DNA of 64,000 nucleotides, taken from positions 310,001-374,000 of the forward strand of contig NZ_AOLN01000018.1 of NCBI RefSeq assembly GCF_000337815.1, given 5' to 3'. Position 1 is the stretch's first letter. Every line of letters begins with the position of its first letter. Below are positions 54,388 through 57,451 of this stretch, one piece after another. This stretch comes from Haloferax mucosum ATCC BAA-1512 (GTDB lineage: Archaea > Halobacteriota > Halobacteria > Halobacteriales > Haloferacaceae). The translations under genes were made by a program, and so were the position numbers. The notes below the pieces were generated by a model. It searched no databases, had not been told where the DNA came from, and saw nothing but the letters and a program-made list of their open reading frames with translations.

Positions 54388-55482
54388 ATGAATACGGTAC
54401 TCGTCACCTCGACCGGAGAAAGCACCGGGAAAACCGCAATCACGCTCGCACTCGGCCTCCTCGCAAGGGAGCGCGGACTGGACGTGGGCTACATGAAGCC
54501 CAAAGGAACGCGCCTGCAGTCCAGCACCGGCAAGACCCTCGACGAGGACCCGATGCTCGCCCGCGAACTCCTCGACATCGACGCGGAGATGCATCAACTC
54601 GAACCCGTGGTCTACTCCCCGACGTTCATTCAGGGAGCCATCCGCGGTAGAGAGAACACGGACGAACTCTCCGAGGTCATCTCGCACCACTTCGAAGATA
54701 TCTCGGCCGGAAAGGACCTGATGCTCGTCGAGGGCGGTGGCAACTACCGAACCGGCGGCATCATCGACCTCACCGACGGTGACGTCGCGGACCTCCTCGG
54801 TGCCGAAGTCATCCTCGTCGCCGACTACCAAGATTCGAGCGACCTCGACGACGTGGTCGCGGCCGTCGAAGACATCGGTTCCGACCGCCTCGCCGGCGTC
54901 GTGTTCAACCGCGTGAGCGACGCCACCTACGACGAAGTCGAATCCGAGGTCGCGCCGTTCCTCGAAGCGCGCGGCGTTCCCGTCCTCGGTGTCGTCCCGA
55001 ACGAAAAGGACCTCGCGGGCGTCACCGTCTCCGACCTCGCTAACGAACTCGGCGCGGAACTCGCAACTGACGCCCCCACCGACGCCTTCGTCGAGCGGTT
55101 CCTCGTCGGTGCGATGGGCGGCGACGCGGCGCTCCGTTACTTCCGCCGCACGAAGGACGCCGCGGTCATCACCGGCGGCGACCGCGCGAACATCCAGCGC
55201 GCCGCGCTCGAAGCCCCCGGAGTCAAGTGTATCATCCTCACCGGTGGTCACCGACCCGTCGGTGCCGTCATCGGCAAGGCCGAGGAGAAGGGCGTCCCCG
55301 TCCTCCTCGTCAACGGCGATACGCTCTCCGTGACCGACCGCGCCGAAGACATCGTCAGCACGGGCCGCACGCGAGATGAGCGCACCGTCCAGCGCATGCG
55401 CGACCTGCTCTACGAACACGCGGATATCGACACGCTCATCGGCGACGCCGTGCCGTCCGGTGACGCGGAAGCAGACGAATAA
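54388..55482 (+). CDS. BioD-like P-loop protein with DRTGG domain (phosphotransacetylase N-terminal type)
   Basis: A 364-residue protein with an N-terminal dethiobiotin-synthetase-like P-loop domain (TSTGESTGKT at residues 7-16, LVEGGGNYRTGGIIDL) and a C-terminal DRTGG domain (GAMGGDAALRYFRRTKDAAVITGGDR, IILTGGHRP). This is the architecture of the regulatory N-terminal half of long bacterial phosphotransacetylases, but the catalytic PTA domain is absent. As the gene sits 26 bases after acd, a role in controlling or supporting ADP-forming acetate production is likely (inference from context). The nucleotide ligand is not known. Confidence 0.82.
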   Translation: MNTVLVTSTGESTGKTAITLALGLLARERGLDVGYMKPKGTRLQSSTGKTLDEDPMLARELLDIDAEMHQLEPVVYSPTFIQGAIRGRENTDELSEVISHHFEDISAGKDLMLVEGGGNYRTGGIIDLTDGDVADLLGAEVILVADYQDSSDLDDVVAAVEDIGSDRLAGVVFNRVSDATYDEVESEVAPFLEARGVPVLGVVPNEKDLAGVTVSDLANELGAELATDAPTDAFVERFLVGAMGGDAALRYFRRTKDAAVITGGDRANIQRAALEAPGVKCIILTGGHRPVGAVIGKAEEKGVPVLLVNGDTLSVTDRAEDIVSTGRTRDERTVQRMRDLLYEHADIDTLIGDAVPSGDAEADE

Positions 55483-55546: not shown

Positions 55547-56377
55547 AGTAGTAATCGAGGTGAGACCCACCGAAGCAGTAATGTCACCATAGCCAAACAT
55601 CCCCGCAATAGCTGGTGTGCCACCAGCACCAATCGTACTCTGGCCGTCAGCGGGGTCGCACTGGTCGTCGCAAAGTCCTTCGTCGAGCGGTGGCGAGACC
55701 GGCCGGGAGCGACCGAACTCGGGATTTGTATCGTCGCGGTTCCGCCGCTTTGGTTCCTGTTCGCGTCCGCGTACACCGGAAATCGAACGCTCTCGCTCGC
55801 GGGATGGCTCGTCGCGGGCGTCATCTCGATTGGATTCTTTCTCGGCACGTTGCTGTGGCCCGAAACGTCGTTCGTCTGGACCGGCGTGAGCACCACCACG
55901 CTGGGACTTGCGTGCGCTCTCGCTCGACAAAAGGCCGTGTTCTACGTCTTCATGGGCTACGCTTACGTGCTGTTGCTTTGGGGCGCGGTGAGAATCGGAC
56001 GACACGCTATCACGAAGCACGAGCCGCTCTGAGACCAAAACCGAATCCTCGCCTTCGCGCTGTTTACCGCCTTGGTTCTGAACGTGGCGTTCAATACCGG
56101 ACTCGCCCCATTCGAGTTCGACCCCACGCCGTTCGTGTCTACCATCTCGATGCTCCTGTTTATCCCCGCCGACGTGCAGTATGGGATGTTCAGAGCGCAC
56201 CCGCTCGCCCGCGACATCGCCCGCGAACACGTCATGCAGACTGATTTTGCGTCGAGTCCGGGCCTGGTTTCGACTCCGACTCCGACTCTGAGTTCGGGTT
56301 CGGGTTCGGGTTCGAGTCTGACTCCGAGTCCGAGTCAGAATCCGTTAGAGTTGCCAGCCGCGGTCGGTGTCGTTTAG
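55547..56377 (+). pseudogene. Remnant of a 7TM-sensor (HisKA_7TM-type) histidine kinase
   Basis: One frame stays open from 55547 to an in-frame TGA at 56030-56032, then continues in the same frame to 56377. No ATG, GTG or TTG precedes the conserved part. Residues resemble the N-terminal 7TM domain of archaeal histidine kinases: LWFLFASAYTGNRTLSLAGW, VFYVFMGYAYVLLLWGAVR, then after the stop NRILAFALFTALVLNVAFN, DPTPFVSTISMLLFIPADVQ and FRAHPLARDIAREHV. The first helices, the start codon, and the PAS/kinase part are missing; the end dissolves into a Ser/Pro-coding repeat. A TGG to TGA change would restore the centre. Confidence 0.6.
56270..56342 (+). repeat. Hexanucleotide-type repeat tract
   Basis: Successive GACTCC, GGTTCG and GAGTCC units, with variants, form a 70-base low-complexity tract at the end of the sensor-kinase remnant. 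Confidence 0.65.
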
Positions 56378-57451
56378 CAATTCCGCACCGTCTTCGGTGA
56401 CGACGACGAGGTCTTCGATTCTGACGCCGAACTCGTCAGGGAGGTAGATTCCGGGTTCGATGCTGAACACGTTGCCAACGTCGAGTTCGCGGTCGTTCCC
56501 GGCGACGATGTACGGTTCTTCGTGGACGTCGAGACCGACACCGTGGCCGGTTCGGTGGATGAACCGGTCGCCGTGTCCAGCCTCCTCGATTACCTCGCGG
56601 GCCGCGCGGTCAACCTCACCAGCGGTGACGCCGGGTTCGACGACCTCGACGGCGGCGGTCCGGGCGGCCTGAACGACCTCGTGAACGTCCGCGAACCCCT
56701 CTGGCGGGTCGCCACCGAAGACGACGGTTCGCGTCTGGTCGCTCGGATAGTGGTCAACGCGCGTCCCGAAGTCGAGGACGACGGGGTCGCCGGACTCGAT
56801 GACGCGGTCGCCGTGGGTGTGGTGCGGCATCGCACCGTTCGGTCCCGATCCGACGAGCGGCCCGAAGGGGATACCCTCGCCGCCTTCGTCTGCGAGGAGG
56901 TGCTCGATTTCGGCGGCGAGTTCGGTCTCCGTCATCCCGATTGCGTCCGGTCCCATCTCGCGGAGGCGGGTGACGACGCGGTCGGCGACCGCGCCAGCGC
57001 GACGTAACGCGTCGAGTTCCGCGTCGTCCTTGCGTACGCGGAGCGGTGCGAGAGCGTTGCTCGCAAGCCCGAAGTCGGCGTTCGGAAGCACCGCTCTGAG
57101 GTCTTGGGTAAAGCGTGCCCACATCGTGTCGTCAACGAGGATGCGACCGTCGTCGAGTCCGAGGTCGGAAACGACGGCTTCGAGCGCGACGACTGGGTCC
57201 TCGTCGTCACTCCACGTCCGCACGTCGGAGACCCACGACTCCGCGCGAACCTGTGTCTCGTAGAGGTCGGGGACGAGAAACGCCGGGTCGCCCTCCTGCG
57301 GGACGAACAAAAGCAGGTGACGCTCCGCAGGTTCGTCCTCGAATCCGGAGAGGTACAGCAGGTTCGGACTGGGGAACAAGACGACTGCGTCGGTGTCGGC
57401 GGCCGATAGTCGCTCCTGACAGGCGCGGGTGCGTCGTTCGAAGGGCGTCAT
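56345..57451 (-). CDS. Xaa-Pro aminopeptidase-like M24 peptidase
   Basis: A 368-residue M24-family metallopeptidase (Xaa-Pro dipeptidase/aminopeptidase P type). The N-terminal creatinase-like domain (1-130) precedes the pita-bread catalytic domain. Metal ligands are visible: VLDFGTRVDHYPSDQTRT with the first Asp pair, FIHRTGHGVGLDVHEEP with His, and FSIEPGIYLPDEFGVRIED with the two Glu. It would cleave peptides with proline in second position. CCCTTTTCTATC about 28 bases before the ATG on the reverse strand supports start 57451. Its 3' end overlaps the kinase remnant on the other strand by about 30 bases. Confidence 0.91.
   Translation of the reverse strand: MTPFERRTRACQERLSAADTDAVVLFPSPNLLYLSGFEDEPAERHLLLFVPQEGDPAFLVPDLYETQVRAESWVSDVRTWSDDEDPVVALEAVVSDLGLDDGRILVDDTMWARFTQDLRAVLPNADFGLASNALAPLRVRKDDAELDALRRAGAVADRVVTRLREMGPDAIGMTETELAAEIEHLLADEGGEGIPFGPLVGSGPNGAMPHHTHGDRVIESGDPVVLDFGTRVDHYPSDQTRTVVFGGDPPEGFADVHEVVQAARTAAVEVVEPGVTAGEVDRAAREVIEEAGHGDRFIHRTGHGVGLDVHEEPYIVAGNDRELDVGNVFSIEPGIYLPDEFGVRIEDLVVVTEDGAELLNDTDRGWQL

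Follow-up and report, generated by a model that had tools for sequence, protein, structure and literature searches.

A probable pseudogene of an orphan 7TM sensor histidine kinase in Haloferax mucosum

The window analysed here is a stretch of 64,000 nucleotides of Haloferax mucosum ATCC BAA-1512 (genome G000, contig C18, 310001-374000), and positions given without further label are counted from its first letter. The slot of interest lies between an AAA_26/DRTGG gene on the + strand (54388-55482, identified via Pfam), present in all 14 other genomes of the genus, and, on the - strand, a gene for an M24 peptidase (56345-57451, identified via Pfam and tblastn), which converges on the sequence in the slot. 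Further out, Pfam domains place a CoA-ligase-like gene (CoA_binding, Succ_CoA_lig and ATP-grasp) on the 5' side and a DUF7544 gene on the 3' side. Within the slot, a + strand frame runs from 55547 to 56377 (closing stop at 56375-56377), with one TGA at 56030-56032 as its single interruption. No ATG opens this frame, and its in-frame ATGs are found only well inside.

A Pfam profile search of the window matched HisKA_7TM (PF16927) twice, upstream of the TGA with E 1.2e-7 (profile positions 65-161) and downstream of it with E 2.1e-5 (168-224; 24.9 bits, which taken alone is under the Pfam cut-off of 28.6). Since the two matches are colinear and lie in one frame, chance is ruled out. Searches via tblastn against H. 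elongans and H. larsenii also gave similarity covering both sides of the TGA. The identity as a decayed 7TM sensor of a histidine kinase, which a sequence-only reading of this DNA had proposed together with an alignment to HisKA_7TM kinases as a check, is confirmed as real and beyond chance by these matches and by the intact orthologues in the same slot described below. Of 28 stretches of viral contigs that fitted a pattern, none encoded a relative of the query. No literature on this locus was found by title or abstract start, which does not prove that the locus is unprinted.

Protein and DNA alignments corrected the limits of the remnant to 55608-56235, in place of the 55547-56377 originally assigned to it. 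The stretch 55547-55640, as read in the original frame, falls outside the gene, which starts at 55608 in another frame. Its 5' end (55608-55640, + strand) was recognized by aligning the DNA to that of H. elongans and H. larsenii and carries an altered start codon at 55608-55610; the translation opens with IAGVPPAPIVL, where H. elongans has MAGVPPAPIVL. The frame is then shifted by a short gap behind 55640, which leaves these first eleven codons in a frame other than that of the rest. The remainder of the helix-1 region and the first loop follow in the original frame (55641-55726, a placement that depends on the alignment), and this helix-1 region is too weakly hydrophobic to be called as a helix by hydropathy scan. 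At 55726/55727, both protein and DNA alignments show a gap of 99 nt (33 codons) at which helix 2, covering approximately residues 39-59 of the intact H. elongans protein in a simple hydropathy scan, is gone. The first helices had been taken as lost; this holds for helix 2, but helix 1 is still encoded, split over two frames. Upstream of the remnant, visible similarity to H. elongans and H. larsenii persists over 55565-55607, within approximately 45 nt 5' of the lost start, and seems to be what is left of an old promoter or leader.

From 55727 to 56029 the + strand encodes the sensor from approximately helix 3 to helix 5, with three hydrophobic segments and the stronger of the two PF16927 matches. 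The TGA at 56030-56032 follows. A Trp codon had been thought to fit at this site, and Trp is indeed found in one of the four intact relatives, H. elongans, but the other three have Arg. Downstream, 56033-56235 encodes the region of helices 6-7, of which only helix 6 exceeds the hydropathy cut-off, and ends at the residues REHV, where the blastn similarity to H. elongans and H. larsenii also stops. From 56344 on, where the M24 gene has its 3' end, the sequence is again similar to H. elongans. No HisKA/HATPase_c transmitter could be identified by Pfam or DNA alignment downstream of the sensor, and only a repeat stretch is found after 56235. Alignment with the intact orthologues thus bears out the proposed loss of both start and kinase domain. 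The damage amounts to five separate lesions and not to one: the altered start, the frame-shifting gap, the 99-nt gap, the TGA and the loss of everything 3' of the sensor.

The 108-nt stretch at 56236-56343, to which no strand was assigned, stands in place of approximately 978 nt of H. elongans that encode the PAS, HisKA and HATPase_c domains. It consists mostly of a hexamer repeat, identified by TRF at 56271-56344, and this is the Ser/Pro-coding simple repeat that had already been noticed behind the sensor. Its GTTCGG and CGAGTC units directly follow the M24 stop. The idea that the filler came from a mobile element was considered and rejected, no second full copy being present in its own genome. 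Among the matches listed, 22 in number, the best elsewhere in the genome covered query bases 55-108 at 78% identity; they appear to be short simple repeats of the same type. A 20-base pattern of the repeat, searched with at most two mismatches, occurred at 14 places, four of them in this stretch, while the reversed control gave none. A role of the filler as terminator of the M24 gene was likewise set aside, because the fold of -39.6 kcal/mol (z -2.0, with 9 of 200 shuffles as good) is too weak a basis for it; the hairpin on the M24-sense strand is perhaps a product of chance.

Comparison of the same locus in relatives, also proposed beforehand, was performed with 14 other genomes of the genus. 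An intact kinase gene of 564 or 565 codons separates the AAA_26/DRTGG gene from the M24 gene in four of them (G003, G005, G007 and G008), giving slots of 1.82-1.88 kb, against 870 nt in the window. In the ten others the slot measures 154-347 nt, and the stretch examined gave no match to the kinase fragments of the window at E 1e-4. A split form of the kinase is present in none of the 14, the gene being either whole or absent from the slot. All four intact proteins exceed the Pfam cut-offs for HisKA_7TM, PAS and HATPase_c, with HisKA just under. Over 195 compared residues, the remnant is 70.8% identical to the slot kinase of H. larsenii and 68.7% to that of H. elongans. Within its own genome, the other kinases share at most approximately 33% full-length identity with the slot kinase, among the matches listed. 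Two further observations were made on these genomes: in G001 the M24 match (L046, 3347-4451, minus strand) is spread over two frames, as if frame-shifted, and the window genome, with 3.37 Mb, is smaller than the 14 others (3.5-4.1 Mb, rounded).

HisKA_7TM has been reported as a domain of many haloarchaeal kinases (PMC5847659). The remnant matches this profile over 65-161 and 168-224, and the intact slot kinases share the domain order HisKA_7TM, PAS, HisKA, HATPase_c, whereas the window copy lacks the start, helix 2, PAS, HisKA and HATPase_c and contains a stop. The slot kinases of H. elongans (L045:5959-7653) and H. larsenii (L044:5926-7623) lie at the same place and in the same orientation as the remnant, at 69-71% identity over the 195 residues, and unlike the window copy they are intact. 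Unbroken kinases also occupy this slot in two other genera of the same family (G038 and G062); they share 40-43% identity with the H. elongans kinase and 60% with one another, and G038 carries a small open reading frame on the opposite strand alongside.

For the analysis of selection, a codon model was written for the purpose and applied to 195 codons of five sequences, the window copy and the four intact ones. The window branch had an omega of 0.217 and the other branches one of 0.147, a difference that is not significant (p 0.24), while omega = 1 on the window branch was rejected (p 1.4e-4). When the intact terminal branches were freed singly, values of 0.341 (G003, p 0.09), 0.157 (G005), 0.095 (G007) and 0.154 (G008) were obtained, so that the window branch falls within the range of intact branches (0.095-0.341). 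As its omega is well below 1 and does not stand out, most of the window branch resembles that of a working gene. Recent decay, as proposed by the sequence-only reading, fits this model without being proven by it, since a low omega would fit a constrained fragment equally well; the model cannot separate recent death from constrained fragments, and it is the lesions that argue for death.

With a probability of approximately 0.93, the remnant is a pseudogene. The gene from which it would derive encodes an orphan membrane sensor histidine kinase (HisKA_7TM, PAS, HisKA, HATPase_c), and four sister species still carry it intact in this slot. The combination of several disabling lesions, five in number, with an intact orthologue at the same place in four of the 14 relatives points to this reading, and those orthologues also uphold the gene loss suggested from the outset. 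A functional kinase requires a start codon and one unbroken frame, neither of which is found here, given the altered start, the frame shift and the TGA; as far as its sequence allows a prediction, the window copy can make no kinase. In the course of decay, the start codon would have been altered in this lineage, two internal gaps would have shifted the frame and deleted helix 2, and a nonsense TGA would have arisen in the sensor. A 3' deletion would then have removed the PAS, dimerisation and ATPase domains, leaving the hexamer repeat next to the convergent M24 gene. The order of these events is one that we infer; the repeat was probably born by slippage or end-joining, the kinase gene was probably ancestral and not imported, and its loss appears to be recent relative to the split from the sister species. 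This would be a case of ordinary, fairly recent gene loss.

The lesions also weigh against other explanations of the interrupted frame. Two short membrane proteins with a function of their own could still be made from the open stretches, e.g. 55850-56032 and 56072-56377, both of which possess possible TTG starts, and the omega of the branch, well under 1 and not clearly raised, would agree with this. However, neither stretch begins with ATG, the first lies behind the altered start, the frame shift and the missing helix, the second ends in the simple repeat, and the split form is absent from the 14 other genomes of the genus, which makes this explanation very improbable. Read-through or recoding of the TGA, which would yield a protein consisting of the sensor only, agrees with the continuation of frame and homology past the TGA; it would leave the four other lesions in place, and the sense codon found at this site in all four intact relatives shows that the TGA is not conserved, so that hardly any credence can be given to it.

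An assembly or sequencing error within an intact gene deserves equally little weight. The genome is a draft of 20 contigs known from a single assembly, but a 99-nt in-frame gap, the exchange of approximately 978 nt for 108 nt and distinct small lesions over approximately 630 nt are implausible as errors, and the contig measures 789 kb with the neighbouring genes whole. An intact copy in a close relative had been suggested as a sign of such an error; this test is inapplicable, because none of the relatives belongs to the same species and because errors of single bases do not produce large gaps.

Outside the genus, the kinase was searched for in 170 genomes of the family, with at most eight candidates scored per genome. 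The two nearest kinases among these were those of G038 (43%) and G062 (41%), both in the same slot, while the next-nearest (G036 and G029) lie on contigs other than that of the AAA_26/DRTGG gene. For other genera, 22 genomes were sampled (20 plus G038 and G062); the stretch examined contained an M24 match in 15 of them, and a clear slot kinase was found in G038 and G062. G164 gave a slot match of 35%, no higher than kinases elsewhere in the family listing, and G166 a partial match; the rest had no slot kinase at E 1e-3, some of them with at least 1.8 kb of other sequence there. For many g21 genomes, stops were flagged inside the AAA_26 gene; in all four cases inspected (G118, G130 and G155 of g21, and G104) this proved to be the terminal stop. 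A kinase in this slot may, judging from the kinase positions outside the genus, be older than Haloferax, with independent arrival as the alternative.

In nine of the ten Haloferax genomes without the kinase, the slot contains a small hydrophobic open reading frame of approximately 62 codons on the other strand, with no Pfam match (e.g. L055, G010:C2:1129542-1129727, minus strand, between the AAA_26/DRTGG and M24 genes). Whole-genome searches at E 1e-3 gave no match to it in the four kinase genomes, the window genome and G009, and within the 15 Haloferax genomes kinase and small ORF never occur together in the slot. The same type of search placed the small ORF next to the AAA_26/DRTGG gene in five g9 genomes (G037-G041), of which G038 has the kinase too. 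A match of some kind, in many cases weak, was present in 41 of 167 genomes; the E 1e-3 search of the stretches examined in other genera recovered the small ORF of G037 only.

In trees, G006 and G012, which carry the small ORF, group with the kinase carriers G007 and G008 (support 98-100). Trees of the flanking genes gave a group of G003, G005, G006, G007, G008 and G012 that excludes the window, with a support of 91 for three genes, 69 with outgroups and 72 for five genes. In the kinase tree with outgroups, the nodes next to the window remnant had supports of 59 and 65, and the outgroup branch measured 1.6; being weakly supported, this tree neither proves nor excludes transfer of the slot. The remnant is more similar to the H. 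larsenii kinase (70.8%) than the latter is to that of G007 (65.8%), whereas the flank trees join the lineages of H. larsenii and G007, which hints at slot exchange, although plain identity is no test of it. Either both genes were lost repeatedly and in alternation, or recombination exchanged the content of the slot, a process described as frequent among haloarchaea (PMC4500145). It is conceivable, if unlikely, that the slot holds one of two alternative Haloferax cassettes, kinase or small ORF, exchanged between species when the conserved flanks recombine homologously, and that the window represents the kinase cassette in the middle of its decay.

Taken alone, the pseudogene is of small significance, as a clear case of a haloarchaeon losing an orphan sensor kinase, and it calls for caution, because its two fragments are open to annotation as separate membrane proteins. 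Both genes co-occur in G038, a member of another genus; if the idea of two cassettes is true, the fact that they exclude each other in Haloferax could therefore point to a conflict of function or regulation. The slot itself, which within one genus holds a kinase, a small ORF or neither, lends itself well, as a natural series, to the study of gene turnover.
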